Shown one piece after another: positions 12,146-35,475 of a stretch of DNA of 52,529 nt (its first letter is position 1; the number at the start of each line of letters is the position of its first letter). Position numbers and translations under genes: made by a program. Below the pieces are notes generated by a model. That model was not told the origin of the DNA, did not search any database, and worked only from the letters and a program-made list of their open reading frames with translations. Source of the DNA: a virus. The stretch lies in the IMG/VR virus record IMGVR_UViG_3300035074_000056, positions 1-52,529 of that record; one strand, 5' to 3'.

Positions 12146-12565
12146 ATGACCAGAGGCAGACCGCCAAAGGCCACGAAAGTGCTTGAGCTGTCGGGGGCCT
12201 ACAAAAAGAACCCCCAACGCAAGAAGGCCCGCGCAAGCGAGATTCAGCCAAGCGCAGGGCCTATGCCTGAATGGCGCTGCATGGAAGGCAAGACGGACAA
12301 GGACGCCTTCGACATACTGATTGCATCCATTAACCCGGCGGTCTTGACGCCTGACGACTACGTTGTTCTTCATATCATGGCGCATTTGCTGTTTTTGAGC
12401 TGGCACGATGCCGCGACGGCTTCACAGCAGACTTTGCTGGTCAATACCCTTTGCGGAAAATTTGGCATGTCCCCATCGGATCGGGCGCGGATGCAAGGCC
12501 CGGCGAAGGAAAAGCCAAAGAACCGGTGGAGTGATGTGGGATCAGATCGCACAGAAGTACGCTGA
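12146..12565 (+). CDS. terS: terminase small subunit, P27 family
   Basis: 139 residues from ATG 12146-12148 (MTRGRPPKATKVLELSGAYK), with AAGGAA just upstream; a longer frame from 12080 lacks an RBS. The N-terminal MxRGRPPKP-type start with LxGxxKKNPQR and the helical core (TPDDYVVLHIMAHLLFL) is the P27-type small terminase pattern. It recognises cos DNA and brings it to TerL. Overlaps the TerL start by 32 bases. Confidence 0.85.
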   Translation: MTRGRPPKATKVLELSGAYKKNPQRKKARASEIQPSAGPMPEWRCMEGKTDKDAFDILIASINPAVLTPDDYVVLHIMAHLLFLSWHDAATASQQTLLVNTLCGKFGMSPSDRARMQGPAKEKPKNRWSDVGSDRTEVR

Positions 12566-14186
12566 AGATGTAGTTAAGGGGCGTATTGCTGCGGGGGAAT
12601 TCGTCAAGCTGTCTTGCAGGCGGCATTTAAACGACCTCAAGAAACAGCAGAAAAGGACGTTTCCCTACAGGCTCAACCCGAAAAAGGTCGAGAAGGTTTG
12701 TAAATTCATTTCCCAGTTGAAACATATCAAAGGGAAATGGGCCGGGACTGAAATCAAATTAGAACCCTGGCAGGTGTTTTTCCTGGCCAACGTGTTCGGC
12801 TGGGAACGGAAATCGGACGGGCTGCGGCGCTTTCGGGAAGCTTACCTTGAAGTCCCCCGGAAGAATGCCAAGTCTACCCTTGCCGCCGGAATCGGGCTGT
12901 ATATGCTCACCGCAGATGGAGAGCCCGGTGCGGAAGTGTACGCAGGGGCCACCACCGAGAAACAAGCTTGGGAGGTGTTCAATCCTGCAAGGCTGATGTC
13001 CAAGCGGGATGCTGAGTTTTTAGAACATTTTGATCTGACGGTAGCAGCTCGATCAATCTTCAGTGAGGCCAATGCGGCCAAGTTCGAGCCGATTGTAGGC
13101 GATCCTGGGGATGGCTCCAGCCCGCATTGTTCTATTACGGATGAGTACCACGAACACCCTACCGACAGACAGTACGACACAATGGCCACCGGGATGGGGG
13201 CACGGGAACAGCCGTTACGGTTGATTACCACGACTGCCGGGGTGGATATTTCTTCTCCCTGCTATTTGAAGAGGGACGAGGTGATCAAGGTTCTCAGGGA
13301 AATCATCGAAGACCCGGAGATATTCGGACTCATCTACACCTTAGATGATGAGGATGAGTGGACGGAGTACGAGAACTGGAAGAAGGCCAACCCGAATTAC
13401 GGGGTTTCCGTCTTTAATGACTACCTGATAGGCCGTCTACGAACAGCAATCAACAACCCGGCCAAGCGAAACATCATCCGCTGTAAACATTTGAACCAGT
13501 GGATGAACAGCGCGGCGCTGTGGATGGATATCCTGAAGTGGAAACGCTGCGCAGATACCACGCTGTCGATTGATGATTTTGCTGGCGAGAAATGCGAAAT
13601 CGCGCTTGACCTGGCAACCAAGATCGACCTGGCAGCGAAAGCTTATATTTTCCACAAGAACGGGAAACGCTACCTTTTCCTGAAGTTTTACGCGCCGGAA
13701 GAAGCGGTACAAAACAACTCTCGTTATCAGCAATGGGTGGCCCAAGGGTGGATTAAGGAAACCATGGGCGACGTGATCGACTTTGAGCAGATCAAGGACG
13801 ATTTACGGGAAGATTGCAAACGCTTCGACATTCAGCACATCGCCTATGACCCTTGGCAGGCCACGCAATTAGCGACAGAAATGCTAGCCGAGGGTGCCCC
13901 GATGATGGAATACCGAAACACGGTCGGCACCATGTCGGAGCCCATGAAGCAGCTCCAGTCCGACGCCTACGCGGGGAAGATCGTTTACAACGGCGATCCA
14001 GTCCTCGATTGGATGATGAGCAACGTTACCGCCAAATTAGATTTTAAAGACAACATTTTCCCGCGTAAGGAAATTGATGCAAACAAGATCGACGGCGTGG
14101 TGGCATCAATCATGGCCATGGGCTTGTCGATTCTGTATCAGGACCAGTATCTAACGGGATACGAGCATGGGATTGAATTCATATAA
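12534..14186 (+). CDS. terL: terminase large subunit
   Basis: 550 residues from ATG 12534-12536 (MWDQIAQKYAEDVVKG), inside the TerS 3' end. ATPase: Walker A-like VPRKNAKST (107-115) and Walker B SITDEYHEH (D203, E204). The C-terminal nuclease carries acidic residues in IALDLATKIDLAA and YDPWQATQLATEMLAEG. This is the P27/HK97-like (Terminase_1) large subunit that pumps DNA into the prohead and cuts it. Length is normal. Stop TAA overlaps the portal ATG (TAATG). Confidence 0.95.
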   Translation: MWDQIAQKYAEDVVKGRIAAGEFVKLSCRRHLNDLKKQQKRTFPYRLNPKKVEKVCKFISQLKHIKGKWAGTEIKLEPWQVFFLANVFGWERKSDGLRRFREAYLEVPRKNAKSTLAAGIGLYMLTADGEPGAEVYAGATTEKQAWEVFNPARLMSKRDAEFLEHFDLTVAARSIFSEANAAKFEPIVGDPGDGSSPHCSITDEYHEHPTDRQYDTMATGMGAREQPLRLITTTAGVDISSPCYLKRDEVIKVLREIIEDPEIFGLIYTLDDEDEWTEYENWKKANPNYGVSVFNDYLIGRLRTAINNPAKRNIIRCKHLNQWMNSAALWMDILKWKRCADTTLSIDDFAGEKCEIALDLATKIDLAAKAYIFHKNGKRYLFLKFYAPEEAVQNNSRYQQWVAQGWIKETMGDVIDFEQIKDDLREDCKRFDIQHIAYDPWQATQLATEMLAEGAPMMEYRNTVGTMSEPMKQLQSDAYAGKIVYNGDPVLDWMMSNVTAKLDFKDNIFPRKEIDANKIDGVVASIMAMGLSILYQDQYLTGYEHGIEFI

Positions 14187-15457
14187 TGGGTCTAATCGAG
14201 CGAATTTCAAACCTATGGACGCCCAAAGCCTCCACCCCTGGTCCATTGGACGATTTTTGGTACAACCAAAGCCCGTACATGAGCAGCGCCGGGGTCAAGA
14301 TCAACCCGGACACAGCCATGCAGATTACGGCTGTATACGCCTGCGTCCGCGTGATATCGGAGACCATTGGCTCCCTGCCGCTGATTCTGTACAAAAACAC
14401 TGGGGATTCAGCCAAAGAACGGGCGATTGAGCATCCTCTTTATAAGATTCTGCAATTCCGGCCCAATCATTACCAAACCGCGTTTGAGTTCTGGGAACAG
14501 GTCGGGATCTCCTGCTGCATGCGGGGCGTGTTTTACGCCAAGATTGTGCTGAGCCGCTCGGGACAGGTGGAAGCCTTGCTTCCTTTGCATCCGGATCGCA
14601 TGTGGATTGAGTCTCTTGCCCCGTACAAGTGGCGTTATCGCTATCATGACGAGTTCGGCAATGAAAAATATTTTATGCCGGATGAGCTGTTCAGGGTGCT
14701 TTTGTACTCGGAACCGGACGGGATTACCCCGATTTCACCGATTAGGGCCAATGCGGACAGTGTAGGCATTACTGAAGCCGCTGAGCGATACGCAGCAAAC
14801 TATTTTGGTAATTCTGCCACCCCTGGCGGATCATTGGAAGCCGATGGTAGGCTGACCGATGAGGCTAAAAAAGCAGTCGGTGAAAGCTGGAACCGCATGT
14901 TCCGAGGCCCAGACAAGGCCGGTAAGATCGCGGTGCTGGATCAAGGTTTGAAATTCAAGCAGATCACCATTAATAACGACGATTCCCAGCTTTTAGAAAC
15001 CCGGCAATTCCAATTAACGGACATTGCCCGGATCTTCCGGGTGCCACCGCACCTCATTCAAGACCTCACCCGCTCCACCTTCAGCAACATTGAGCATCAA
15101 TCGCTGGATTTCGTGACCCACACCGCCCGCCCCTGGCTGCGGCGCATTGGGCAGTGTGTTCAGCGGGATTTGCTGCTGGATAACGAGCTGGATCAGTATT
15201 TTGCGGAATTCTGGACGAAGGATCTCATGGCGGCCGATGCCAAGGCGCGGGCGGAATACAACGCCAGCGGCATTCAAAACGGCTGGATGACGCCCAATGA
15301 GGCGCGGGTTTCCGAAGGCTTGAACCCTCTGGATGACCTGGATGAGCCCATGATTCCGAATAACCTGCGAAAACTCAGCGACCCACCGCCTACAGCGGCA
15401 CCCCCTGGCAAAGAACCGGGGCAGCAGTCCACAAGCAAGGGAAATAGCGATAAATGA
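14186..15457 (+). CDS. portal protein, HK97 family
   Basis: 423 residues. The typical start of the family is seen: early KINPDTAMQITAVYACVRVI, then SETIGSLPLILY and the HPLYKILQFRPN segment; further on come LETRQFQLTDIARIFRVPPHL and FWTKDLMAADAKARAEYN. It forms the dodecameric ring through which DNA enters and to which connectors bind. Begins on the last base of the TerL stop and overlaps the protease gene by 4 bases. Confidence 0.93.
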   Translation: MGLIERISNLWTPKASTPGPLDDFWYNQSPYMSSAGVKINPDTAMQITAVYACVRVISETIGSLPLILYKNTGDSAKERAIEHPLYKILQFRPNHYQTAFEFWEQVGISCCMRGVFYAKIVLSRSGQVEALLPLHPDRMWIESLAPYKWRYRYHDEFGNEKYFMPDELFRVLLYSEPDGITPISPIRANADSVGITEAAERYAANYFGNSATPGGSLEADGRLTDEAKKAVGESWNRMFRGPDKAGKIAVLDQGLKFKQITINNDDSQLLETRQFQLTDIARIFRVPPHLIQDLTRSTFSNIEHQSLDFVTHTARPWLRRIGQCVQRDLLLDNELDQYFAEFWTKDLMAADAKARAEYNASGIQNGWMTPNEARVSEGLNPLDDLDEPMIPNNLRKLSDPPPTAAPPGKEPGQQSTSKGNSDK

Positions 15458-16389
15458 AGCTTGCAAGCTTATTCAATAGCACCATTTGGGCGATTCGGGC
15501 GGAAGAATTCGAACTTTTAAACCAATATGTCTCGCTTCAGATTCGAGGCATTCAAAACCCGGAAGTAGAAGCCCAGATTCAGGCGTTAAAGCGTGGCCGT
15601 CCGGCTAAAATCTCCGGCGGCGTGGCTGTTTTGCCGGTTCGTGGCGTAATTTCCCACCGTTCTTCCTTTTTCTCCGAGCTTTTCGGCGGGGCCAGCGTGG
15701 AAAGAATGTCCGAAGACCTCGATATGATGGTGAAAAACCCGAATATCGGGGCGATTGTGCTAGATGTAGACTCCCCCGGCGGCTCTGTCTCCGGCGTTAT
15801 GGAATTTGCCGAGCAGATTCAGGAAGCTCGCAAGGAAAAGAAAATCGTGGCCGTTGCGAACCCTCAATCGGCCTCTGCGGCGTATCATATCGCCAGCGCA
15901 GCGGAAGAATTGATAGTGGCTCCCTCCGGGTCCGTGGGTTCCATCGGTGTGTTTATGATGCACCAGGACTTTTCCGAGGCTATGAAGGCTGAAGGCATCA
16001 ATACAACCTTCATCAAGGCTGGGAAGTATAAAACTGAGGGCAATCCCTATGAACCCCTCACAGACGAGGCCAAAGAGGCCCTGCAAGAGCGCGTAGACGC
16101 TTATTATGATTATTTCGTCAAAGGCGTGGCCAAAGGCCGGGGCGTGAATGCTTCGGATGTCCGGAATGGATTCGGGCAGGGGCGCATGGTGATGGCGAAA
16201 GACGCCGTGAAGCAAGGCATGGCGGATCGAGTGGGGACGTTGGCGGATACGCTGCAAAGACTCGGTGTAAAAGCCGAAAGTGAACGAAAGTTTCTCTCCG
16301 GTGAGGCGGAAACGCCGGACATAGAAGCGACAAGCGATGACAAAGCCCTGGAAGCAGAGCGGCGGCAGCGCGAGATCGACATGTTTTAA
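15454..16389 (+). CDS. S49 (SppA-like) prohead protease
   Basis: 311 residues with the SppA/ClpP-fold signature: VLDVDSPGGSVSG (103-114), nucleophile Ser141 in NPQSASAAYH, and the general-base Lys in KAGKYKTEGNPYEPLT (K191 or K193). Such S49 enzymes replace the U35-type protease in many HK97-like phages and trim the capsid N-terminal delta domain. ATGA-coupled to the portal and followed by the capsid gene after 21 bases with AAGGAGAG as RBS. Confidence 0.92.
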   Translation: MKLASLFNSTIWAIRAEEFELLNQYVSLQIRGIQNPEVEAQIQALKRGRPAKISGGVAVLPVRGVISHRSSFFSELFGGASVERMSEDLDMMVKNPNIGAIVLDVDSPGGSVSGVMEFAEQIQEARKEKKIVAVANPQSASAAYHIASAAEELIVAPSGSVGSIGVFMMHQDFSEAMKAEGINTTFIKAGKYKTEGNPYEPLTDEAKEALQERVDAYYDYFVKGVAKGRGVNASDVRNGFGQGRMVMAKDAVKQGMADRVGTLADTLQRLGVKAESERKFLSGEAETPDIEATSDDKALEAERRQREIDMF

Positions 16390-16410
16390 CACAATAAGGA
16401 GAGAACATTA

Positions 16411-17733
16411 ATGAACGACGCGATCGTTTCGCGCCAGCGCGAGCTTGCCGCAATCAAAAAAGATATGGAAACGCTGCATAAAGACAGTGGCAATAACAAA
16501 CTGTCCAGCGATCAGGAGATCACATGGGGCCAATTGCTGGAAAAAAAGAACGCAGTTGAAGCCGCATTGCAACGGGAAGTTGAGATCCACCAAGCGGATA
16601 AAACCCTGACTGCGCTTTCTGGTTCCGAAAAAGAACAACACGAAGAAGCTGAGCGCCAAGAATCTCTTGCAAACCCGAAATTGTTTGCCTCTTTGGGCGA
16701 TCAAATGCAGGCCATTCACCGTGCGATCTCCTCGCATGGCCGCGAAGTGGATGATCGGTTGCTGAAAATCAACGCTGCCGCTAGCGGGGCCGCAACCAGC
16801 CCGCAAGAGGATGGCGGTTATTTCATTCAAAAGCAATTCATGCAGGATATCTGGCAGAACCCGGTTTCTGTTGGCCAACTGGCTGCACGTTGCTCAAAAT
16901 ACACGATTGGCAACGGGTTCAACGGGATTAAAATCCCCATGCTGCGCGACACCAACCGGACAGATGGCAACCGTTTCGGCGGTGTGGCCGTGTATCGTGC
17001 GGGTGAGGCCACTAGCGTGGATTTCACCAAGATCAAGTTCGACATTTCGGAAATGTATGCCAACAAGATGCAAGGCTACTTTGCATTGACTCACGAAGTC
17101 ATGCGCGACGCTTCCGCAGTGGAATCCTTGACTAAAATGGCCATCGGTCAGGAATTTGCCGTGGTTTTGGATGAAGAAATCTATGACGGCGACGGCGGGC
17201 AAGGTCGTTGCAAGGGCTTCATGAACAGCGGGGCTAAAATCTCCGTGTCCAAGGAAACCAACCAGGCGGCGGCAACACTGGTACCGCAGAACATCGTGAA
17301 GATGTATGCCCGCATGAATCCCCGTTTCCTGTCCAATGCAGTTTGGCTAGCCAATAACGACATTATGCCGCAGTTGGCCTTGATGACTCTGCCGATTGGT
17401 ACTGCTGGTGTGCCGGTGTTCTTACCTCCGAATGGGTTAGCCAGCGCCCCTGGCGGCATGCTGTATGGCCGTCCCATTGTTTTTGTGGAAACCGCAGAAA
17501 CGCTGGGCACCGAAGGCGACTTGGTACTGGCCGATCTGAGCCAATACGCTTTGGTCCAGAAAGAAGGCATGCGGGTTGCTCAATCCGAGCATGTCCTGTT
17601 TGCCAGCGATCAGGTTGTCTTCCGCTTCACGATGGAAGTGGGCGGTCAATCCAAGTACAACGAGCCGATCACGCCTAAAAAAGGCACCAGTAACACGCTG
17701 TCGCCTTACGTCACCCTCGCGACTCGTTCATAA
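16411..17733 (+). CDS. major capsid protein, HK97 fold
   Basis: 440 residues. The first about 110 are a coiled-coil delta domain (MNDAIVSRQRELAAIKKDME ... EEAERQESL), expected to be removed by the S49 protease. The mature part has HK97-fold landmarks: DGGYFIQKQFMQDI, ALTHEVMRDAS, ILDEEIYDGDGG-like VVLDEEIYDGDG, and PRFLSNAVWLANND. Strong AAGGAG RBS. Followed by a stable hairpin without a T-run. Confidence 0.93.
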   Translation: MNDAIVSRQRELAAIKKDMETLHKDSGNNKLSSDQEITWGQLLEKKNAVEAALQREVEIHQADKTLTALSGSEKEQHEEAERQESLANPKLFASLGDQMQAIHRAISSHGREVDDRLLKINAAASGAATSPQEDGGYFIQKQFMQDIWQNPVSVGQLAARCSKYTIGNGFNGIKIPMLRDTNRTDGNRFGGVAVYRAGEATSVDFTKIKFDISEMYANKMQGYFALTHEVMRDASAVESLTKMAIGQEFAVVLDEEIYDGDGGQGRCKGFMNSGAKISVSKETNQAAATLVPQNIVKMYARMNPRFLSNAVWLANNDIMPQLALMTLPIGTAGVPVFLPPNGLASAPGGMLYGRPIVFVETAETLGTEGDLVLADLSQYALVQKEGMRVAQSEHVLFASDQVVFRFTMEVGGQSKYNEPITPKKGTSNTLSPYVTLATRS

Positions 17734-18792: not shown

Positions 18793-19671
18793 ATGGAACC
18801 TAAAAAAACTGAAGGTCTTGTTGCTGAAGCAATCAAGGCTCAAGTAAACCCTTTTGCCAAAGGGGTTAAAAAACGCACGGACAAGGTAGCCATCGTCGGC
18901 TTTGCGCCTTCGAGCATGAACCTTGCCCCCTGGCTGGACGAGTCTTGGGAAATCTGGACGCTGAATAACATTTATTCAGCGTTCCAGCCCGGACAGCCGT
19001 TCCGCTGGGATCGCTGGTTTGAAATGCACCCGAATTTCCGGCAATATGCGCCGTTTCAAGACATCCGCATGGACGCCGGGAGCATCGTGCGCGGGGATAA
19101 CCGCCCCAGCAATGTGGTGAAAATCGAGCATATCGACTGGCTGAAAGCACAAGGCCCGGAGAAGCCGATCTATACACTGAAGGATGAGCCGGACATTCCG
19201 GGCGCGGTGCCTTATCCGATTGAAGAAGTCAAAGCGTGGTGTGAAAAAGAGGGTTTGGCCCCCTACTTCAGTAATTCGATCAGTTACATGATCGTTAAGG
19301 TGCTGATGGAAAGCAAAGTCGCAACCGGCAACCCTGACGGCTATGAAGAACTAGGGGTGTGGGGTGTGGATATGGCCGCCGGGGGCGAGTACCAAATGGA
19401 ACGGCCTTCGGTGGAATACTGGCTTGGAGTGGCTAAGAAGTATGTCAAAGTCGTGCTACCGAAAGAATGCGAGCTGTTGAAAGCGCGCCTGTATGGCTAC
19501 GAGTCCGATAGTGACTTTGTGGCCAAGATCAAAACGCGTCACGGCGAACTCGCAGGCAACATGAACCGCGCCATGATGCAACAGCGGGAAGCGGAAAATG
19601 CCGCCAATTACTTCCGGGGCGCGGCGGATGACTGTTCATATATTTTGACCAACTGGGGAAACGGAGCGTAA
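18793..19671 (+). CDS. glycosyltransferase-like / MptE-Maf-like Rossmann protein
   Basis: 292 residues. After a 30-residue leader comes VAIVGFAPSSMNLAPWLDES, then WEIWTLNNIYSAF, RWDRWFEMHP, a YFSNSISYMIVKVLME helix, and ELGVWGVDMAAGGEYQMERP. This resembles the Rossmann-like DUF115/MptE group and sugar-nucleotide-binding phage proteins; Maf pseudaminyltransferases belong near this group. A role as the transferase for the phage's nonulosonic acid is attractive but unproven. It is preceded by AAGGCGGAA (18781-18789), the leader shared with pse genes, and sits among head-accessory genes. Confidence 0.5.
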   Translation: MEPKKTEGLVAEAIKAQVNPFAKGVKKRTDKVAIVGFAPSSMNLAPWLDESWEIWTLNNIYSAFQPGQPFRWDRWFEMHPNFRQYAPFQDIRMDAGSIVRGDNRPSNVVKIEHIDWLKAQGPEKPIYTLKDEPDIPGAVPYPIEEVKAWCEKEGLAPYFSNSISYMIVKVLMESKVATGNPDGYEELGVWGVDMAAGGEYQMERPSVEYWLGVAKKYVKVVLPKECELLKARLYGYESDSDFVAKIKTRHGELAGNMNRAMMQQREAENAANYFRGAADDCSYILTNWGNGA

Positions 19672-20046: not shown

Positions 20047-20625
20047 ATGGATCACAATGTGCAAACAGATGTCGGATTTGGCGGATCTGTAGCAGGCAGC
20101 GGCGGTTTGGGCCTGCATGGCCGCGCGCCTCGTTCTTTGTACCATGTGGAATGCGTGGCCCCGGACGGCACCGTGCGCTGGACGGCTGATTGTGGCAACG
20201 TCGTTACGCTCGACGGGCGGATCATGTTGCTGGATCGATTCTTTAAGGGATCCACCTACACGGCGGCTTTTTACGTGGGGCTGATTAAATCCACGCAGTC
20301 TCCGAACTCTACGGACTACATGGCCTCGACCACTCGGGATTGGAGCGAATCCACCTGCTATTCAGATGGCGCTCGCCGGACATTGACTTTGGGCACTGTT
20401 TCTACAGCTTCGGTGGATAACTCAGCCAGCAAGGCCAGCTATACTATCAACCAGACCACGGAAGTCTTCGGCGCGTTCGTCACCAATAGTTCGCAGATTT
20501 CCACCGGCAGCACCTATGTGCTGTACGGTGCGGCGGTGTTTGATACCCCGTCATCCTCCGGGCGCTCGGTGGTGTCTGGGGATACGCTGAATATCACAGT
20601 AACGCTGACCGCATCCACAAGCTAG
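20047..20625 (+). CDS. probable virion-associated protein, 192 aa
   Basis: 192 residues. The N-terminus is Gly-rich (GFGGSVAGSGGLGLHGRA), then YHVECVAPDGTVRWTADCGN, LDGRIMLLDRFFKGSTY and a beta-rich Ser/Thr C-terminus (SGDTLNITVTLTAST). The VxPDGtvrW ... N-VVT-G ... LD-F layout is recognised from phage structural proteins downstream of capsids. AAGGAGAG RBS. Function unknown. Confidence 0.6.
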   Translation: MDHNVQTDVGFGGSVAGSGGLGLHGRAPRSLYHVECVAPDGTVRWTADCGNVVTLDGRIMLLDRFFKGSTYTAAFYVGLIKSTQSPNSTDYMASTTRDWSESTCYSDGARRTLTLGTVSTASVDNSASKASYTINQTTEVFGAFVTNSSQISTGSTYVLYGAAVFDTPSSSGRSVVSGDTLNITVTLTASTS

Positions 20626-20664: not shown

Positions 20665-22755
20665 ATGTCCAGCGTCGGCCCTCAGTATGCTGGCTCAGGC
20701 GCAGAGGTCAACCACGCTTCAGGGACAGTCGCTTGGACTAGCGAAACAAACATAACTTCAGACGATAATAATACGGCTGATTGTGCGTTTGGGTCCGGTT
20801 CCGGCGCTTCCTCCGAATGGCTAGTCAGCAGCAGTCATGATTTTTCGGCGATCGGCAACAGTGACACCATTGATGGGATTGTCGTTGAAATTGGGATTAA
20901 GGCGTCCACCGCCAACCGCTGTTCCGATACCGATGTTTTCCTGACCAAAGATGGCACCAACACGGTCGGGACTGATCAGGCCACCGGCACCAACGTGACG
21001 GGCACCGAAGTCAACCGAACTTATGGCGCATCAAACAGTCTTTGGGGCACCACTTGGACAGCAGCCGAAATCAAAGCATCTACCTTTGGTTGCATGTTCC
21101 GCCTCCTGCAAGGGCTTGGGGCAACGACAGCCAACGTCGATTATATCCGGATCACGGTTTACTATACCGCTGGTTCAACCACTCACGAAGTTACTTCAAC
21201 ACTAGGTATGCGTGCGGGGGCCAAAACTTCCGCCGTCGCGGTCCTCGCTGCCGCATCCGTTCCGCTGGTGTCGCGGCAGGGGCTTGCCCTTGCCGCGTCC
21301 AGGGGCGCGGAAGTCAATATTGCCTTAGGTAGTCGGCAAGGGCTCACCAACGCAGCCGCTTGGAGTTTGGGCAGCTCGATTACCCTGGGGTCTCGCCACG
21401 GACTTTCTGAAGCCGTGTCGCTTACCCTGGATCCTGATTTAAGTTTAATCAGCCGGTTGGGGTTAAATAATACCCCCATTGCAAGCCTGGGCAATTCTTT
21501 GTCCTTTGGCTCCCGGCTGGGGTCTGCCTTCTCTGGACTCCTCACTATTCCCACCGCCATGACGTTCGGCACCCGGCAAGGGGCGTCGATGGTTGGCAGT
21601 ATCGCCTACCCGCTCGCGATCGCCTTGGGCACCCGGCAAGGCTTAAGCCTGGCAGAAACCCGAAGTGTCTACACAGCGATTGCTTTGGGCGAACGTTCCG
21701 GCTTGTCGGATTCGGTGCTACTGACTCACGGTCCGGCGCTGTCCCTAGGCTCCCGCTTGGGGCTCTCAGAATCGGTATTGCTGACCCTGGCAGCGGCCAA
21801 CACTTTCGGCACCCGACAAGGCGCGGGATTTGTCGGGGTTCTGTCGATTCCGCTGGCTCAGAGTTTCGGTGTTCGTTCCGGGCTCTCTATTATCGGCGGG
21901 CTGGCATACGAAAACGCTGTGAGCCTGGGCGCTCGAACCGGCTTGAGCCATGCCGGAAGCCTGACATACAACTATTCAATCAGCCTGGGCAATCGCTTAG
22001 GGCTGAGTTACTCACCAAATCTCATCTCTACACCTACGGTCCTTTTGGGGGCAAGAGTCGGGGAGGCCGTTTCGACGGTTTTGACTCAGGCCCCCGCCCT
22101 TTCTTTTACGGCAAGGATGGGGCAGGGTGAAGGCGGTTTGCTGACCATTTCAGCCAGCTTGCCGATGGTGGTCCTGCAAGGATTACATTTCCCCGGTAAT
22201 TTCACCCTGGAAAACTCGGTTGGCTTCGGGGCGCGGCTGGGTTACTCGGATATCGGCGGGAAAGTCGTTTCCTCTGCCATCACCCTAGGCAACCGGGTAG
22301 GCGTTGGCTTATCGGCTAACCTCACCATCAACACCGCAATCCCACTGGCAACCCGGACGGGATACGAAGCAGACGTTACTCTGAATCTCGGGCCTGCGGT
22401 TTCCCTGGGCGCTCGCGCGGGGCTGAGCGAATCCGTCACCATGACCGGGGCGCCTACAATCACCTTCGGGGCTTCCCTGGGCGCGGCGCTTGTCAATGCC
22501 CTCACGATGGGACAGAGCGTTTCCATCCCGGTGCGGGTGGGCCTGGAAAATGATTCCGCCGAATATCCCGGAACACTCACGCTCAATGTTTCAGATGTCA
22601 GCACCCTGGCTGAAGCTCTGAGCGACAGCAGCAGCGTGACACTGGCACTCACTGAATTCGGCACCTTGACAGGAGCCTTTACCTCATTTAGCACCCTGAC
22701 CGGGACCATTGTGGCAGTCAGCACCTTGACCAGTACGGAGACAACGCTTCCATGA
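20665..22755 (+). CDS. giant repeat virion protein: about 22 copies of a 20-residue repeat
   Basis: 696 residues. Residues 1-175 form a beta-rich head domain of adhesin type (SLWGTTWTAAEIKAST, ANVDYIRITVYYTAG). From about 175 to 640 the chain is nearly strictly periodic: units of 20 residues starting [LFI]G[xR]xG[LA]S, for example LGSRHGLSEAVSLTLDPDLS, FGTRQGASMVGSIAYPLAIA and LGARTGLSHAGSLTYNYSIS. The last about 60 residues have a shorter repeat around STLTGT. No Cys or signal peptide occurs in the repeats. A solenoid or extended fibre on the head is likely. It lies between head-accessory genes and pseF, and is Ser/Thr-rich. Confidence 0.75.
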   Translation: MSSVGPQYAGSGAEVNHASGTVAWTSETNITSDDNNTADCAFGSGSGASSEWLVSSSHDFSAIGNSDTIDGIVVEIGIKASTANRCSDTDVFLTKDGTNTVGTDQATGTNVTGTEVNRTYGASNSLWGTTWTAAEIKASTFGCMFRLLQGLGATTANVDYIRITVYYTAGSTTHEVTSTLGMRAGAKTSAVAVLAAASVPLVSRQGLALAASRGAEVNIALGSRQGLTNAAAWSLGSSITLGSRHGLSEAVSLTLDPDLSLISRLGLNNTPIASLGNSLSFGSRLGSAFSGLLTIPTAMTFGTRQGASMVGSIAYPLAIALGTRQGLSLAETRSVYTAIALGERSGLSDSVLLTHGPALSLGSRLGLSESVLLTLAAANTFGTRQGAGFVGVLSIPLAQSFGVRSGLSIIGGLAYENAVSLGARTGLSHAGSLTYNYSISLGNRLGLSYSPNLISTPTVLLGARVGEAVSTVLTQAPALSFTARMGQGEGGLLTISASLPMVVLQGLHFPGNFTLENSVGFGARLGYSDIGGKVVSSAITLGNRVGVGLSANLTINTAIPLATRTGYEADVTLNLGPAVSLGARAGLSESVTMTGAPTITFGASLGAALVNALTMGQSVSIPVRVGLENDSAEYPGTLTLNVSDVSTLAEALSDSSSVTLALTEFGTLTGAFTSFSTLTGTIVAVSTLTSTETTLP

Positions 22756-23039
22756 CAATCTCAGCCGCTCCCAAGGGTCAGGTCTACCGGGTGCAAACGA
22801 CCATCACCACCAACAGCACAGCGGTAACACCTACAGGGATCACGTTGTATCTCATCAGCCCAGCGGGGGTTGCCACCACCTACACCTCTTCACAGATGAC
22901 GAACTCCAGCACAGGTGTCTACTACTACGATTACACCATCGCGGCTGAAGGGATGCACTATTACAAATGGGTCACGACCGGAACCGGCGCGGGGGCGAAC
23001 TCCGGGCAGTTCCGAGGGCTCGATACACCATTCGATTAA
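22752..23039 (+). CDS. Ig-like small virion protein, 95 aa
   Basis: 95 residues starting MTISAAPKGQVYRVQTTITT, with YYYDYTIAAEGMHYYKWVTT: a single beta-sandwich module of the kind seen in phage head or tail proteins. Overlaps the repeat-protein stop by 4 bases, so the two are likely made in a fixed ratio. Confidence 0.6.
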   Translation: MTISAAPKGQVYRVQTTITTNSTAVTPTGITLYLISPAGVATTYTSSQMTNSSTGVYYYDYTIAAEGMHYYKWVTTGTGAGANSGQFRGLDTPFD

Positions 23040-23059
23040 GTCAATTGGAGGCGGAAACC

Positions 23060-23803
23060 ATGAGACTAGCCATCATTCCCGCGCGGGGCGGGAGCAAGCG
23101 CATACCGCGCAAGAACATCAAAGAGTTTCAGGGCAAGCCGATTATTGCGTATGCGATAGAGGCGGCGCTGGCGTCTAAATGTTTTGATATGGTTTTAGTC
23201 TCGACCGATGACGAGGAAATCAAGAATTTTGCGCGGGCGAACGGGGCATACACACATCCACGAAGCGAACTGAATGCCAGTGACACCGCCGGAACCGTGC
23301 CTGTATTGCTGGAAGCGCTAGATTGGCAGCATAAAACATTCAGCATTCAGACAGACGAAATCTGTTGCATTTACCCTTGCAATCCATTTCTGACGGCTTG
23401 GGGGCTTTGGTACGCATATACGCGCCACAAGAAAACCAATGCAGACAGCACTTTCCCTGTCGTGAAGTACAGCTATCCCCCACAACGGGCGCTAAAAATC
23501 ACCAAATGCAAAGCCGAAATGCTCCACCCTGAGCATTACCCAACCCGCTCACAGGATTTAGAGCCTATCTACCACGACGCTGGGCAATTCTATTGGCTGA
23601 ATACAAAAGCCCTGCTTGAGCAGCAAAAACTCTTCATGAAGCGTTCAACCCCCTTGATCTACAACGAACTTGAAGCACAAGACATAGACACGTTAGAAGA
23701 CTGGGCACTGGCGGAGGTGAAATACCAGTTATGGCGGAATACTCAGTTCTCATCATTGGCGCAGGAACCAAAGGGGCTTTCTACGACACCCCAGACAGCT
23801 TAG
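23060..23803 (+). CDS. pseF: pseudaminic acid cytidylyltransferase (PseF)
   Basis: 247 residues from ATG 23060-23062, chosen by the leader AGGCGGAAACC immediately upstream. IIPARGGSKRIPRKNIKEF is the nucleotide-binding motif of CMP-nonulosonate synthetases. LVSTDDEEIKNFARANGA, ASDTAGTVPVLLEAL, ICCIYPCNPFLT and the DIDTLEDWALAE ending all match the PseF type. It activates pseudaminic acid with CTP. The last about 24 residues overlap the next gene by 73 bases, so the tail is probably an unselected extension. Confidence 0.92.
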   Translation: MRLAIIPARGGSKRIPRKNIKEFQGKPIIAYAIEAALASKCFDMVLVSTDDEEIKNFARANGAYTHPRSELNASDTAGTVPVLLEALDWQHKTFSIQTDEICCIYPCNPFLTAWGLWYAYTRHKKTNADSTFPVVKYSYPPQRALKITKCKAEMLHPEHYPTRSQDLEPIYHDAGQFYWLNTKALLEQQKLFMKRSTPLIYNELEAQDIDTLEDWALAEVKYQLWRNTQFSSLAQEPKGLSTTPQTA

Positions 23804-24678
23804 AGGTTTTGAGTCATGCGAAGGCGTTCTCAAAGCCCCCCTTTAATCTCGTGGGTTTTGTGGATCCCGACACCAGCAAAGCCGAAAAAGCGGCCTCGAG
23901 TTGGGGTGGTGAGGCTTTTCCTGATGTTGCCACTGCTTTTGATCGCCTTGGCAGCGTGGATGTTGTCACAGTGGCTGCGCCGGACGCCACGCACTCCGAA
24001 GTCTTGCGACAGCTCGTCGGCAAACCCTGCAAGCTGATTTTTGCCGAAAAGCCGTTTACCCGCAGCGCCGAAACCGCCAAGCAATTGCTGGCAGATTTTG
24101 AGGCTCATGGGCAGACGGTGGCAGTGAATTATACCCGCCGGTTTGCTTCCGGCTTTCAAAAGCTGGCCTCGCAAATCCTAACCGGAAAGCTAGGCAAATT
24201 TCTGGGTGGGTCTGGCTTTTATGGAAACGGACTCTTCCACAATGGCTCGCATATGTTTGACATGTTGCTGATGTTGGCAGGGGGTGTCCGGGTTAAATAT
24301 TTCGACCCATTTATTGATGCCAAACAGGATGACCCTAGTGTGTTTGCCTTGCTGACGGTCGGGCAGGCTCCGTTTTATCTGGGGGTTATCCCACGCTTTC
24401 ACGTCAATGCTTTTGAAGCAACGCTTTATTTCAGCAAAGCGGCGATCCGGATTACTGATGTTGGCAGACAGATTGAAATTCTACCTGCCGAACCCAGACC
24501 AGGCTATGAGGTCGAGTTCATTTATACAGAAGCAGACGGATCTTACTTCGCTGCTGATGACGACCCAATGACCGTTGCCGTCCAAAACATCGCCGACCAC
24601 CTAACCCACGGCACCCCACTCCTCAGCCCCGCAGAAAACGCCGTGCGCGTTCTGGAAATCTGCGAGGCCCTGTCATGA
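23731..24678 (+). CDS. Gfo/Idh/MocA-family oxidoreductase
   Basis: 315 residues. The N-terminal Rossmann dinucleotide motif VLIIGAGTKGAFYDTP precedes VVTVAAPDATHSEVL and IFAEKPFTRSAETAK, the EKP signature of the Gfo/Idh/MocA family. The C-terminal alpha/beta domain follows. These enzymes oxidise or reduce sugars and sugar nucleotides with NAD(P). Such a gene often accompanies nonulosonic-acid loci that make derivatised sugars, but it is not part of the minimal Pse pathway. Starts inside pseF and is ATGA-coupled to the aminotransferase. Confidence 0.88.
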   Translation: MAEYSVLIIGAGTKGAFYDTPDSLEVLSHAKAFSKPPFNLVGFVDPDTSKAEKAASSWGGEAFPDVATAFDRLGSVDVVTVAAPDATHSEVLRQLVGKPCKLIFAEKPFTRSAETAKQLLADFEAHGQTVAVNYTRRFASGFQKLASQILTGKLGKFLGGSGFYGNGLFHNGSHMFDMLLMLAGGVRVKYFDPFIDAKQDDPSVFALLTVGQAPFYLGVIPRFHVNAFEATLYFSKAAIRITDVGRQIEILPAEPRPGYEVEFIYTEADGSYFAADDDPMTVAVQNIADHLTHGTPLLSPAENAVRVLEICEALS

Positions 24679-25589
24679 CGGCCATCGGTGCGGAAGAAAA
24701 AGCCGCAGTCATGAGAGTGCTGGATTCCGGGGTTCTCTCTGGCTTTCTGGCTGGCCAGCTTTACGGTGGGCCGGAAGTCAACGCCCTGGAAGAAGAATGG
24801 GCGGCTCACTTCGGTTTTAAACACGCCGTTGCCATGAATAGCGCTACCAGTTGCTTGATTGCAGCATGTGGGGCGGTAGGGGTAGGCACTTATAGCCAGG
24901 TGGTCGTTCCCTCTTTGACCATGAGCGCCACCGCTGCGGCTCCGAAGTTCTGGGGGGGCGATGTCATCTTCTGCGATATCGAACCGGACTACTTTTGTCT
25001 AGACCCTAAAAAAGTCCGCGATATTCCGGTGGTTAATGCCATCATTACGGTAGATTTGTTTGGGCAGTCTTCAAATCCCAATCTGAATAGTTGGAGCCTC
25101 TTTTACGACGATACACCCATCATCCAAGACGCTTCCCAGCGCCCAATTCCTGGCGGCTTTGGGGATATCGTTGTTCATTCCCTCAACTACCACAAGCATA
25201 TTCATTGCGGCGAAGGCGGGATGGCTTGCACGAATGATGATGAGCTGGCTAAAAAGCTTCGGTTAATCAGGAACCACGCTGAAAACGCCGGGGTTGATTA
25301 CTTCGGCTTCAACTTCCGCATGACCGAGATCGAAGCGGCCATTGCCCGCGTTCAGCTCACCAAGCTACCGGCTGAGATTCAACGGCGGCAAGAAAATGCA
25401 AGATTTATCAGGGATTTGGCTCCGGTGCGCCCCGGCTTTGATCATGCTTGGTATTTATACCCGCACACCACCCGGATTCCTGAAGGTTTCCGATATGCCA
25501 AACCGCTCTACAACCTGCCCGTGTTTAGTGCTGAGTCCTTACCTGTCACTGAACAAGTCTGGAAATCCATCTGGATGACGCGGCCATGA
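24675..25589 (+). CDS. DegT/DnrJ-type PLP sugar aminotransferase (PseC-like)
   Basis: 304 residues with DegT landmarks: GVLSGFLAGQLYGGPEVNAL, HAVAMNSATSCLIAACGAVG, an Asp ring-nitrogen contact in IIQDASQRP (D152), and the PLP Lys174 in SLNYHKHIHCGEGG. RLIRNHAENAG and GFNFRMTEIEAAIARVQL follow. It would transfer an amino group to a 4-keto sugar nucleotide. In the Pse pathway this is step two, after PseB. At 304 residues it is shorter than the usual 370-390, with a shortened C-terminus. Confidence 0.85.
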   Translation: MTAIGAEEKAAVMRVLDSGVLSGFLAGQLYGGPEVNALEEEWAAHFGFKHAVAMNSATSCLIAACGAVGVGTYSQVVVPSLTMSATAAAPKFWGGDVIFCDIEPDYFCLDPKKVRDIPVVNAIITVDLFGQSSNPNLNSWSLFYDDTPIIQDASQRPIPGGFGDIVVHSLNYHKHIHCGEGGMACTNDDELAKKLRLIRNHAENAGVDYFGFNFRMTEIEAAIARVQLTKLPAEIQRRQENARFIRDLAPVRPGFDHAWYLYPHTTRIPEGFRYAKPLYNLPVFSAESLPVTEQVWKSIWMTRP

Positions 25590-26173
25590 TTTTTATTAAA
25601 GGCGAACGGGTCATTCTAGAACCGCTGGACGAAAACCATTTAGGGACAGAGTATAAGCAATGGCTGAACGACCCAGAGATTAACCGTTTCACTTCTCGCT
25701 CTTCATATCCACTCAATTTGGCTGCCTGCAAGGACTATGTTCAAAGCTGTCAATCAGCCGAGCGCATAGTTCTTGCTATTTCTATAGAATTTCCAGGGCA
25801 GCCGCATTTCAAAATACACATTGGCAATATTTCTCTGCAAAAAATCAACCTTATTAATCGCACTGCCGAATTAGCCATCCTGATTGGAGAGCGTCAAGGT
25901 GAAGGCTACGGTCTGGAAGCCGCCAAGCTCGTTTGCGCCCACGGTTTCAACCAACTCGGCCTAAACCGCATCTACTGCGGCACCCATGCAGAAAACATCG
26001 GCATGCAGAAGCTGGCGCTCAAGCTGGGCATGCAGGAGGAAGGCCGCTCCCGCAAGGCTTTATTCAAAAACGGCGAATTTGCCGACGTGATTCACTACGG
26101 CATGCTTCAAGAGGATTTCATTAATGCCGATCTCGGTATCCACCAAAGCCAGCCATTATCCGATCACCCTTGA
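25586..26173 (+). CDS. GNAT acetyltransferase of the sugar module
   Basis: 195 residues (MIFIKGERVILEPLDENHLG). The GNAT core shows IGNISLQKINLINRTAELAI, the acetyl-CoA loop GERQGEGYGLEAAKLVC, and LNRIYCGTHAENIGMQKLAL. The subfamily (RimJ/PseH-like) fits N-acetylation of amino sugars in nonulosonate loci. Its final about 17 codons overlap the connector gene in another frame, and those residues look unselected. ATGA-coupled to the aminotransferase. Confidence 0.85.
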   Translation: MIFIKGERVILEPLDENHLGTEYKQWLNDPEINRFTSRSSYPLNLAACKDYVQSCQSAERIVLAISIEFPGQPHFKIHIGNISLQKINLINRTAELAILIGERQGEGYGLEAAKLVCAHGFNQLGLNRIYCGTHAENIGMQKLALKLGMQEEGRSRKALFKNGEFADVIHYGMLQEDFINADLGIHQSQPLSDHP

Positions 26174-26717
26174 AGAAGCCAAGGAACACCTTCGGGTTAC
26201 TGATACCAACAGCGATTCTTATATTCAAGGCTTAATTGCAATGGTGGCGGAACAGGTAGAAGCTCAAACCGGCAGAACACTCATTACCACGCAATACACC
26301 TGGAAGCTGGACGGGTTCCCTTGTGAATACATGATGTATGTTCCCAAGCCGCCGCTACAAAGCATTTCATCTATCACCTATATCGATACCGACGGCTCAA
26401 CGGACACCTGGGGATCAACCTACTACAGCGTTGACAACACCAGCATCCCGGCCCGGCTGTATCCGGCTTATCAGGAAACATGGCCAATTACTTTGAACGT
26501 CCCCAACGCCGTGACGATCACTTATGTAGCCGGGAGTAGCTACCTGGGCGGGGTCCCGGAAGGGTTGAAACACGCCATGAAATTCCTGATTGCTCACTAC
26601 TGGTCTAATCGTCAGGAGAGTGTGACCGCCGCCGCGCTGGTGACTTCGGTTAATACCCCCAAAGCTTCTGATTGGCTTCTAGCCAAGTATCAGGTGCCGT
26701 TCTTTGAGGGGTACTAA
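26124..26717 (+). CDS. head-tail connector (gp6/phiE125 gp8-like)
   Basis: 197 residues. YPITLEEAKEHLRVTDTNSD then YIQGLIAMVAEQVEAQTGRT is the conserved start of the phage head-tail connector family. LKHAMKFLIAHYWSNRQE near the end is also typical. It forms a ring beneath the portal. The start lies 50 bases inside the GNAT gene; the conserved N-terminus confirms it. This gene normally follows capsid directly; here 8.4 kb intervene. Confidence 0.88.
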   Translation: MPISVSTKASHYPITLEEAKEHLRVTDTNSDSYIQGLIAMVAEQVEAQTGRTLITTQYTWKLDGFPCEYMMYVPKPPLQSISSITYIDTDGSTDTWGSTYYSVDNTSIPARLYPAYQETWPITLNVPNAVTITYVAGSSYLGGVPEGLKHAMKFLIAHYWSNRQESVTAAALVTSVNTPKASDWLLAKYQVPFFEGY

Positions 26718-27043
26718 TGGACATCGGCAGAATGGATCGGCTGATTACGATCCAAACCCCAACCATCACCTATAACACCGAAGGCAGCCCTTCTAAAAGC
26801 TGGTCAACTGGGTATCAGGTTTGGGGCGAGGTGATTCAAAAGGGCGGGCGGGAAATCTTTCGGCATGAGCAAGTCAGCGCCGAAGCCGACACCATTTTCA
26901 GAATTTACTACAACACCACCGTGATCCCTGATCGCACCCAGCGCGTTGTCTACAACTCCACCAATTACAACATTATGGACGTGCGCGAGCTGGGATATGG
27001 CGAGCGTTGGGAAATTATGGCGAAGGCGACCCCTGCTGTATGA
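26717..27043 (+). CDS. head closure / head-tail adaptor protein
   Basis: 108 residues starting MDIGRMDRLITIQTPTITYN; VWGEVIQKGGREIFRHEQV and RIYYNTTVIPDRTQRVVYN are typical of the SPP1 gp16-like head-tail adaptor family (small beta barrel). It closes the head after packaging. TAATG coupling with the connector and ATGA coupling with the next gene. Confidence 0.88.
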   Translation: MDIGRMDRLITIQTPTITYNTEGSPSKSWSTGYQVWGEVIQKGGREIFRHEQVSAEADTIFRIYYNTTVIPDRTQRVVYNSTNYNIMDVRELGYGERWEIMAKATPAV

Positions 27044-27438
27044 CGATAGAAGCCGATCTCTATTCTCTGCTGACCACCAGCACCAGCCTCGCCGCGCTCT
27101 CATCCAACCGAGTGTATCAAGACCAGCTCCCGCAGAATGTTACCTACCCGGCCATCAGCTACTTTCTGGTTAGTGCGCCGCGTATCCCCTTGATGGGTAA
27201 CGACGCGGTGAACATCCCAGCCCGGTTCCAGATTGATTGCTGGGCAGCCACACCCACCGCAGCCAACACCCTGACGAACACAGTGATCGGTGCGATTGAG
27301 CGGTACGGCTCTACCAGCGGGTCTGTGGTGATTGAAACCATCTTTATAGATGACGTGCAAGCCATCCCGGAACACGATCCGGACGAGGAAGTTTTTAGGC
27401 GGGCCATTGACACAATCGTGCAGTATCGGAGTTCTTAA
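27040..27438 (+). CDS. tail completion protein (DUF3168-like)
   Basis: 132 residues from ATG 27040-27042 (MTIEADLYSLLTTSTSLAAL), overlapping the previous stop. VYQDQLPQNVTYPAISYFLV, ARFQIDCWAATPTAANTL and IPEHDPDEEVFRRAIDTIVQ match the DUF3168/SPP1 gp17-type tail-joining proteins that link neck and tail tube. Length typical. Confidence 0.85.
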   Translation: MTIEADLYSLLTTSTSLAALSSNRVYQDQLPQNVTYPAISYFLVSAPRIPLMGNDAVNIPARFQIDCWAATPTAANTLTNTVIGAIERYGSTSGSVVIETIFIDDVQAIPEHDPDEEVFRRAIDTIVQYRSS

Positions 27439-28190
27439 TGGCTAACTTTGTTTTACAAGATCAAAAAATATTAATCGGCCCGATCCACATCACCAGCATC
27501 ATGAACGCCGCCGAACTCAAGCAGGCGGTGTCCGCCCTGGATGACACCACTTTCGGGCAAGATACCATGAGCAACCTGCCGGGACTGCGGTCGATTGCTT
27601 GCAGTGTTTCCGGCTTGTATGACCCTGAACCCACTTACGACGGTGCGCTTTCCAGTCAGCTAACCTTGACCGGCAACGCTTTTACCCTGGCAGACAGCAC
27701 CACGGTCACTTCCTTGGCCTACTTTTTCAACGCGATGTTGAGTGAATACACCCCGTTTCAAAACAGCGTGGGCGAATTGGCCGGGTTCAACTGCGGCGCG
27801 GCGGCGACTAGGACCGCCACGGGCAAAGCCGATCTTGTGCGTGGGCAGGTGGGTTACTGGACGGAGAACTTTACCACCAGCGCCAACGGCACTTCGGTGA
27901 ACCTGGGTGCGGCAACCACCAGCCAGAAGGTTGGCGGGGCTTTGCATTTGTTTGGCATCCCCAGCAGCACGTTTACTTTTGCGGCCACCATTGAATCAGC
28001 CGCCAGCAGCGCGGCGAGTTCCAGCCAGTGGACCACTCGCTTTACGTTCAGCACATTTTCAACCAAGGGTTCAACATTCCAAACCAGCACGGGCAATGTG
28101 ACTGATACCTGGTGGCGCTTCACTCATGCGACTGTATCCAGCTCACAATCTACCGGCTTAAGTGCGGTCGGCGTTTTCGGAATTTATTAG
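27438..28190 (+). CDS. tail tube protein, long paralogue
   Basis: 250 residues (MANFVLQDQKILIGPIHITS). Residues about 28-55 read VSALDDTTFGQDTMSNLPGL, closely matching the next gene (VNAVDDTVMGQDTMSNLPAL); both begin MAN(F/L)V and share the early beta-strand pattern of tail tube proteins. This copy has an additional beta-rich C-terminal half with many Ser/Thr. Overlaps the tail completion gene by one base. Confidence 0.75.
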   Translation: MANFVLQDQKILIGPIHITSIMNAAELKQAVSALDDTTFGQDTMSNLPGLRSIACSVSGLYDPEPTYDGALSSQLTLTGNAFTLADSTTVTSLAYFFNAMLSEYTPFQNSVGELAGFNCGAAATRTATGKADLVRGQVGYWTENFTTSANGTSVNLGAATTSQKVGGALHLFGIPSSTFTFAATIESAASSAASSSQWTTRFTFSTFSTKGSTFQTSTGNVTDTWWRFTHATVSSSQSTGLSAVGVFGIY

Positions 28191-28221
28191 GGCGGAAAGA
28201 TTTCACAAGGAGAAATAAACA

Positions 28222-28659
28222 ATGGCAAACCTCGTGTTCGACGATTGCTATGTACTCATGAACTCAACCGCCATTTCGGGCGTTAAGTCAGTCACCATTA
28301 ACCACAAAGTCAACGCTGTAGACGACACCGTGATGGGACAGGACACCATGTCCAACCTGCCCGCCCTGAAAAACTGGGATGCTTCCATCACGTTCGCGCA
28401 GGATTTCGCAGCATCAGCGATTGATTCCCAGCTTAACGGCTTGCTGCAATCGCGGTTCCTGCTTCAGGTGCGCGTGACCAGCTCAGCCCGCAGCACCCAA
28501 AACCCCGAATACCAAGGCTATTGCATGATCACCGATTACGGCATTTTCAGCGGTTCCGTGGGTGACTTTGCAGAGGCTCCTATTTCCCTGGTCCCAGCGA
28601 AAAGCTCGACCGGTGGCACCAGCACAGCAGATCTCACAAGGACAACTTCTTCAACGTAA
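28222..28659 (+). CDS. tail tube protein, short paralogue
   Basis: 145 residues (MANLVFDDCYVLMNSTAISG) with the shared MGQDTMSNLPAL segment, then LKNWDASITFAQDFAASAID and SRFLLQVRVTSSA. Length is typical of a single-domain tube protein. AAGGAG RBS (28208-28213). Two tube-like genes in tandem suggest a core tube plus a variant (for example decorated or terminal) subunit. Confidence 0.75.
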   Translation: MANLVFDDCYVLMNSTAISGVKSVTINHKVNAVDDTVMGQDTMSNLPALKNWDASITFAQDFAASAIDSQLNGLLQSRFLLQVRVTSSARSTQNPEYQGYCMITDYGIFSGSVGDFAEAPISLVPAKSSTGGTSTADLTRTTSST

Positions 28660-28686: not shown

Positions 28687-29826
28687 ATGATAGAGGGTTT
28701 GCAATACTGCACCCGGTGCATTATGCCGGAAACGCAGGAAGGCATTGCTTTTGATGAAATGGGCATCTGCACAGCTTGCCAGTCATCTGAGCAGAAGATG
28801 CACATCAACTGGCAACAGCGCCGGGAACAGCTCGGGGCGTTGCTGGATGAAGCCAAGGCTAAGGCCGGGGATAACTACGATTGCATTATCCCCATCAGCG
28901 GCGGGAAGGATAGCTTCTTTCAGCTTCACGTGCTGGTGAAAGAGTTCGGTTTAAAGCCTCTTGCCGTGACCTTCTCCCATAACTGGTTTTCCAAAACCGG
29001 CCAATACAATCTGAATCTGGCTTTGGAAACCTTCAACGTTGATCACATCCAGTTCACACCGAATCGGGCTTTGGTCAACAAGCTGGCGAAAAAATCAATA
29101 TACAAAATTGGGGATGCCTGCTGGCATTGTCACTCCGGCGTGGGCGCGTTCCCTCTTCAGGTGGCAGTGGAGAAGGGCATCCCTCTTTTAGTTTGGGGTG
29201 AAAGCATCGCCGAAGCCTCCGGGCGGGCCAGCTACGATGTCCCGGTCAGGCACTTCGACCGTGAGTACTTCGAGAAAGTCTCGGCCAAAGTCCCCCCGGC
29301 AGCCATGCTGGGCGAGGGCATTACCGAGCAGGATCTGAACCCGTTTAAGCTGCCAACCGCTGAACAATGCGAGGCTATTGGACTGCGCGGGATTCATCTT
29401 GGCGACTATATGTTCTGGGATGACGAAAAGCAAATGGAGTTTGTTCGCGACCATTACGGGTGGCGAGAAACGGAGATTGAAGGCACGTATAAGTGCTACA
29501 AATCCGCCGAATGCATCATGCCCGGTGTCCATGACTTCGCTTGCTACCTCAAACGCGGGTACGGGCGAGGGAGTTATCAGGCCAGCGTAGACATCCGCAA
29601 TGGCTTATTCACCCGGAAGGAAGGGCAAGCGGTAGCAGGGATGCACGACCCCGAGCGCCCGCATGCCCTGGATTACTTCCTGGATATTACCGGGATGAGC
29701 GAAGAAGAGTTTTATCAGGCGGTGGATGCCCACCGGCATGAAAAGCTGACCGAGCGCCCCCTAGTGCATCCCAAGCTCAGACCTCACCCGGAAAAACTGG
29801 TGCCTTATGTCCAACAGCTTGATTGA
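28687..29826 (+). CDS. pseA: N-acetyl sugar amidotransferase (PseA/WbpG-like)
   Basis: 379 residues. YCTRCIMPETQEGIAFDEMG with C8/C11 and C28/C31 is the zinc-binding start of the family. The PP-loop ISGGKDSFF (70-78) binds ATP, and ACWHCHSGVGAFPLQVAVEKG is conserved. These enzymes convert an acetamido or hydroxyl-bearing nonulosonic acid to the acetamidino form using glutamine-derived ammonia. Preceded by a doubled AGGCGGAA leader (28668-28683). Located between tail tube and amidase genes, overlapping the latter by 20 bases. The partner glutaminase is not visible. Confidence 0.88.
   Translation: MIEGLQYCTRCIMPETQEGIAFDEMGICTACQSSEQKMHINWQQRREQLGALLDEAKAKAGDNYDCIIPISGGKDSFFQLHVLVKEFGLKPLAVTFSHNWFSKTGQYNLNLALETFNVDHIQFTPNRALVNKLAKKSIYKIGDACWHCHSGVGAFPLQVAVEKGIPLLVWGESIAEASGRASYDVPVRHFDREYFEKVSAKVPPAAMLGEGITEQDLNPFKLPTAEQCEAIGLRGIHLGDYMFWDDEKQMEFVRDHYGWRETEIEGTYKCYKSAECIMPGVHDFACYLKRGYGRGSYQASVDIRNGLFTRKEGQAVAGMHDPERPHALDYFLDITGMSEEEFYQAVDAHRHEKLTERPLVHPKLRPHPEKLVPYVQQLD

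Positions 29827-31969: not shown

Positions 31970-35475
<3,506 letters not shown>

Follow-up and report, generated by a model that had tools for sequence, protein, structure and literature searches.

The locus and its neighbours

The window, by which the whole analysed stretch of DNA is meant (52,529 nt, IMG/VR record IMGVR_UViG_3300035074_000056), holds a siphophage-type genome with genes for terminase, portal, protease, capsid protein, head-tail adaptor, closure, tail terminator, major tail protein, tape measure and J-like protein. An integrase gene is present and the phage was called temperate. The gene studied here occupies positions 20665 to 22755 of the plus strand, from the ATG at 20665 to the stop at 22755, and encodes a protein of 696 residues. 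Its parts and neighbours are as follows.

12408–17733, plus strand: upstream head module (terminase large subunit, portal, ClpP-type protease, major capsid protein)
20047–20625, plus strand: upstream 192-aa protein, probable partner virion protein
20665–21180, plus strand: N-terminal beta-sandwich domain of CBM4/MAM-type fold (residues 1–172)
21181–21246, plus strand: linker (residues 173–194)
21247–22566, plus strand: 22 repeats of 20 residues (residues 195–634), delimited by lag identity, block cutting and the orthologue
22567–22752, plus strand: C-terminal tail of 62 residues (residues 635–696), putative virion anchor by comparison with fusions in L002, L003, L007 and L053
22752–23039, plus strand: 95-aa protein, its start overlapping the stop of the repeat gene
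26124–28659, plus strand: downstream head-tail adaptor, head closure, tail terminator and major tail proteins

The 192-aa protein matched the 'Structural protein' of PDB entry 26la (chain U, E 1.9e-8), and its homologue also lies upstream of the N-domain gene in a related locus, L053. Two adjoining major-tail-protein homologues of 250 and 145 aa were observed at 27438–28190 and 28222–28659. A 292-aa protein at 18793–19671 was 71–74% identical in the related record L187 and 34% identical to a Microcystis phage protein annotated as a type 11 methyltransferase. It was considered as a Maf-type glycosyltransferase, which was unsupported, and no family match was obtained for it in the MptE family search, Pfam or the PDB profile search. 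Elsewhere, an L,D-transpeptidase (YkuD) match at 43949–44413, near the end of the late region, is possibly a lysis or cell-wall gene, and a 297-aa ORF on the minus strand (50301–51194) contains an internal HicA-type domain match. The contig ends (3–212 and 52271–52526) carry 15-bp tandem repeats in open frames, which encode (I/Y/N)E(A/V)G(T/S) pentapeptides in one frame. The circularity suggested by a 117-bp identity of the ends may be spurious, since the identity lies inside these arrays.

The 20-residue array

It was found that residues 195–634 could be cut into 22 consecutive blocks of 20 residues with zero indels (ALSLGSRLGLSESVLLTLAA is an example unit). The initial annotation had reported about 22 strictly spaced 20-residue units between residues 175 and 640; the period and the unit number were borne out, as was the array itself, but it starts one unit later, at 195, the LGMRAG at residue 180 being one residue out of phase. 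Over residues 176–645 the identity was 0.309 at lag 20, 0.263 at lag 40 and 0.276 at lag 60, when no lag in any of 500 shuffles exceeded 0.150. The recurrent residues of the unit are Gly12 (22/22 units), Arg10 (20/22), Leu/Phe7 (20/22) and Gly8 (16/22), and the strict motif [LFI]GxRxG matched 16 times.

The DNA of the units is divergent, as had been claimed, with a mean identity of 41%, and Tandem Repeats Finder detected no DNA repeat across the array region. Identical residues shared the same codon in 31% of cases, against 29% expected from codon usage. The units are therefore old. The proposal that the period is maintained by selection at the protein level was upheld, because synonymous sites have reached saturation, yet frame and framework residues have been kept; the orthologue described below also retains the 20-residue step.

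The array also shows a super-period of roughly five to six units, with identities of 0.37 at lag 100 and 0.36 at lag 120 versus 0.27–0.32 at lags 20–80. Since blocks of 100 residues also align in register, the pattern points to an earlier block duplication. This super-period, the N-terminal domain (residues 1–172) and the 62-residue tail were missed initially. None of the arrays tested showed significant hydropathy alternation (z 0.7 for the 20-residue repeats here), and an even-lag identity pattern was for this reason not pressed.

The N-terminal domain

The N-terminal domain was predicted by AlphaFold2 with pLDDT mostly of 90–98, and the model is a jelly-roll beta-sandwich of the CBM4/MAM type, for which about 130–170 residues are expected. 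Structure matches included the CBM4-2 entries 2y6k and 4bj0 (Z 9.6) and the MAM-containing 4gwm (Z 10.1); CBM4, chitosan-binding and MAM-containing chains in general gave Z of 9–10 over 120–135 residues at 3.0–3.8 Å. Foldseek returned CBM11, CBM22, CBM30 and agarase modules with E values of about 0.002–0.02. No Pfam model recognized the domain by sequence. It was concluded from the model that the domain is a CBM/MAM-type sandwich, common to many phage and bacterial proteins, and putatively a binder of glycan or another surface ligand.

An orthologue and a gene loss

An orthologue was found in record IMGVR_UViG_3300037418_004022 (L004/L034). It has 618 residues, is 48% identical and carries 18 units, the alignment containing an 80-residue gap (four units) in the array and one single-residue insertion. 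Identity was 55% in the N-domain, 62% in the linker, 43% in the repeats and 48% in the tail. Identity was higher in the flanking proteins, at 84% (192-aa protein), 86% (head-tail adaptor) and 71% (major tail protein). Among the 18 aligned units, Gly12 was identical in all, positions 7, 8 and 17 in 61%, Arg10 in 39% (7/18) and position 15 in 11%. The Gly and Arg of the motif had both been noted as conserved; this holds for Gly12, whereas Arg10, at 7/18, is not a framework residue. By these alignments, Gly12 and the hydrophobic/Gly framework are constrained, and Arg10 is not.

In the related record L187, the 120-aa protein is followed directly by PseF, and the rest of the repeat gene is missing together with the downstream 95-aa gene. 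A 51-bp remnant of the repeat-gene linker was recognized at L187:3139-3257 (alignment score 67 versus a shuffle maximum of 25–30); it is either the scar of a deletion or a short peptide that has been retained. The repeat gene is thus not essential to this phage type, as far as a record of only 9.9 kb indicates. Length and function can be tested with the orthologue pair (22 versus 18 units) and with the L187 deletion.

Recurrence of the architecture in other phages

Viral and bacterial records were scanned for the N-domain and their ORFs were then searched with profiles, which gave 186 ORFs with the domain, from 181 loci. Tandem repeats were called by a shuffle test on the ORF parts outside the N-domain (z above 6, duplicates removed). 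Such repeats stood behind the domain in 26/84 viral ORFs versus 2/75 from bacterial genome contigs (Fisher p 1.4e-6), or in 22/80 viral ORFs when the window and L002–L004 were left out (p 1.1e-5); this enrichment is indicative, because the peptide patterns differed between the viral and the genome scan. A few repeat-positive ORFs (L080, L046 and L058) were of low complexity or weak.

The periods were mostly 20 or 22 residues or their sums (40, 42 and 44), and periods of 14, 19, 21 and 23 also occurred. Judged by their units, such as GYSQTVGFSQAAALTTPKIL (L037), HSHTAESIALTQLHGLIVENCL (L007) and ASLTGTSNINGTLAATRGLS (L042), the repeats behind the N-domain look unrelated to one another, and a profile comparison of one pair, the window repeats and those of podophage protein P0003, found no similarity. 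Similar periods in units that look unrelated may reflect either convergence or a very fast turnover of the unit sequence.

Repeat-bearing relatives adjoin head genes in L044, L052, L037 and L061, and tail-tip J/fibre genes in L016, L042, L047 and L063. In several, a virion part follows the repeats: a tail tubular protein A domain (phrog_394) in the podophage proteins P0002 and P0003, DUF2612 behind the N-domain and array in L053 (whose short array failed the periodicity test), and two Gp80 'Podophage GP4 fiber I' domains behind the N-domain and 22-residue repeats in L007. Two consecutive L007 genes (L007:3544-5931 and L007:5935-7527) each encode the N-domain and His-rich 22-residue repeats, and the first ends in the two Gp80 domains. 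In L037, L044 and L061, laminin-G/ConA-type lectin domains accompany the N-domain and precede the repeats. Since fused virion parts follow the repeats and lectin-type domains precede them, the C-terminus would by analogy lie at the virion and the N-domain would point outward.

A proposed fibre-like appendage

We proposed that the gene product is a fibre-like appendage on the head or neck of the virion, with a C-terminal anchor, a repeat stalk and the N-domain as its tip; a probability of roughly 0.6 was assigned to this reading. The C-terminal tail would attach the protein to the virion, and the 22 beta-type repeats would build a stalk. They probably do so as part of an oligomer, since prediction gave them no confident fold as a monomer. 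At the far end, the CBM/MAM-type sandwich may bind a glycan or another surface ligand on or near the host, and the gain or loss of whole units would alter the stalk length with the frame intact. The location is deduced from the gene position and the fusions: the gene lies on the same strand between the capsid genes and the head-tail connector genes, beside a relative of a solved structural protein, and its repeat-bearing relatives adjoin head or tail-tip J/fibre genes and carry virion parts on the C-terminal side of the array (tail tubular protein A, DUF2612 and Gp80). The resemblance of the N-domain to carbohydrate-binding modules, its co-occurrence with lectin-type domains, the enrichment of repeats behind it in viral records and an orthologue array that differs by exactly 80 residues are also consistent with a ligand-binding tip on a stalk of adjustable length.

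Several observations weigh against the fibre reading. The repeats yielded no confident model and no significant hydropathy alternation, and L187 lacks the gene. Sandwiches of the CBM/MAM type are widespread and do not necessarily bind sugar; the neck fibre of cyanophage A-1(L), which bears a CBM, showed no host binding (PMC10966104). The fused virion domains belong to other proteins, so that the orientation is argued by analogy.

The fold of the repeats was approached by library searches and modelling. No family was retrieved for the full repeat protein from Pfam up to E 10 or from PHROGs at E 0.01, and no sequence relative with a solved structure was found in the PDB with the full protein, the repeat consensus or the repeat profiles; the earlier statement that no family matches is correct for these libraries. 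In the full AlphaFold2 model (shallow alignment, monomer only) the repeats had pLDDT mostly of 30–60, for the greater part under 50, and a six-unit fragment, modelled as a monomer from a seven-row alignment in gapless register, reached a pLDDT of 38 and a pTM of 0.19. These low-confidence models contain strands. The structure-library matches concern the N-domain only, the lack of matches to the repeats being uninformative because the repeat model is poor.

Triple beta-spiral shafts are built of short beta repeats with an invariant Gly and rise by about 13 Å per unit, compared with about 5 Å per coil in a solenoid. An intertwined trimeric shaft of this kind, as in the adenovirus fibre, is the fold that we consider the better candidate, though still short of probable. 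The invariant Gly12 in short beta-type units and the failure of monomer prediction on the repeats fit it. Phage fibres are commonly trimeric, for which reason an oligomer was weighted above a monomeric solenoid; an obligate oligomer would also defeat monomer prediction. The neck fibre of cyanophage A-1(L) is a trimeric example (PMC10966104). However, the Pfam search up to E 10 gave no adenovirus shaft-repeat match, and the match to the adenovirus-fibre viral fold (rank 30, prob 0.28) was not significant.

A solenoid had been suggested initially from the regular step. In this case the repeats would form a monomeric beta-solenoid rod with about two strands per 20-residue coil, and the prediction would have failed only for the shallow alignment. 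The strict indel-free period, the Gly invariant at the same unit position and the strands in the models agree with such a rod, but the six units remained at pLDDT 38 despite the gapless-register alignment, and no sequence match to any solenoid was found in Pfam or the PDB. The suggestion was thus unsupported, which is no disproof, since the alignments were shallow and only monomers were modelled; we regard the solenoid as rather unlikely.

Sugar genes and the possibility of glycosylation

Genes of a pseudaminic-acid type are scattered among the same-strand virion genes of the window (22967–26173, 28687–29826, 34461–35408 and 42183–43642). Those placed individually are the following.

22967–23803, plus strand: PseF, above the NCBIfam cut-off
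23731–24678, plus strand: GFO/IDH oxidoreductase
28687–29826, plus strand: WbuX-type amidotransferase, above the NCBIfam cut-off
34461–35408, plus strand: PseB, above the NCBIfam cut-off
41410–42216, plus strand: RmlD-like gene
42183–43127, plus strand: NeuB/PseI-like synthase, below the NCBIfam cut-off

PseC-like aminotransferase and GNAT genes, below the NCBIfam cut-offs, also stand among the virion genes. Neither a UDP-sugar hydrolase (PseG) nor a transferase was identified. An Amidase-family gene (PF01425) at 29807–30988 in the late region directly follows the WbuX-type amidotransferase.

These genes raise the alternative that the Ser/Thr-rich repeat protein (171 Ser and Thr among 696 residues) is the acceptor of a phage-encoded pseudaminic-acid-type glycan that masks or decorates the virion. 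In addition to the genes themselves, the genes from PseF to GNAT stay adjacent to the repeat gene in L004. However, L187 lost the repeat gene and retains PseF, 12 other phage records with the architecture are without PseF (several of them fragments), no Maf/MptE-type transferase was found in the window by the MptE family search, and the neighbouring small virion-module proteins are Ser/Thr-rich too. In view of L187 and the PseF survey, a close tie between the repeat fibre and the sugar genes was rejected. Glycosylation is accordingly regarded only as a possibility, with the pathway not tied to the fibre, and the acceptor role as improbable.

A secreted or lysogen-expressed surface protein outside the virion would suit the integrase gene and the occurrence of the N-domain in bacterial proteins, but the late-operon site between head and connector genes and the fusion of relatives to virion domains make it more improbable still.

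A possible modular class of fibres and comparison with known systems

Beyond the single gene, siphophages and podophages alike have head, neck and tail genes in which a tip domain without a Pfam model precedes unrelated repeats of nearly equal period. We tentatively suggest a modular class of phage surface fibres, in which a CBM-like tip is kept and the stalk consists of sequence-unrelated beta repeats of about 20–22 residues, exchangeable, adjustable in length and with a repeat fold of their own; in the window such a fibre would lie beside genes for much of a nonulosonic-acid pathway that could decorate it. This generalization is possible and somewhat doubtful. If the repeats share one fold, they would represent a stalk whose sequence can be exchanged and whose length can be adjusted, and the tip domain would serve as a handle for adhesins that family libraries miss. 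Tandem-repeat phage stalks are already known; the novelty lies in the repeat sequence and in the pairing of a single tip domain with many unrelated stalks.

Close relatives in architecture are the tail tubular protein A fusions of the Manatee Spring podophages (MW202478 and MW202473), in which the same N-domain, at about 33–38% identity, is followed by tandem repeats of about 22 residues. Their repeats show no profile similarity to those of the window (P0003 was compared) and run on into the phrog_394 (gp11-like) domain, which was absent from the window protein (P0001) in the PHROGs search. Fibre I gp80 of Ralstonia phage GP4 (PF23140; PDB 8jou) is linked through L007, where a window-type N-domain and 22-residue repeats are joined to two Gp80 domains. 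The window protein lacks Gp80 by Pfam, and the upstream 192-aa protein, tried as a Gp80 relative, showed no similarity to the L007 Gp80 domains in a profile comparison.

In the adenovirus fibre shaft, a triple beta-spiral, the stalk is formed by short beta repeats that keep one Gly/Pro position; the window protein had neither a sequence match nor a significant fold match to it. The gp82-gp81-gp80 neck fibre of A-1(L), encoded in a single operon, is flexible, about 100 nm long and bears a distal carbohydrate-binding module (PMC10966104). The likeness is one of description. In the A-1(L) stalk separate gp81 trimers are joined into a chain (PMC10966104), whereas the units of the window protein are in tandem in a single polypeptide. 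Tandem repeats of a carbohydrate-associated domain, BACON, occur in a crAssphage protein, where whole domains are repeated instead of 20-residue units (PMC6949934).
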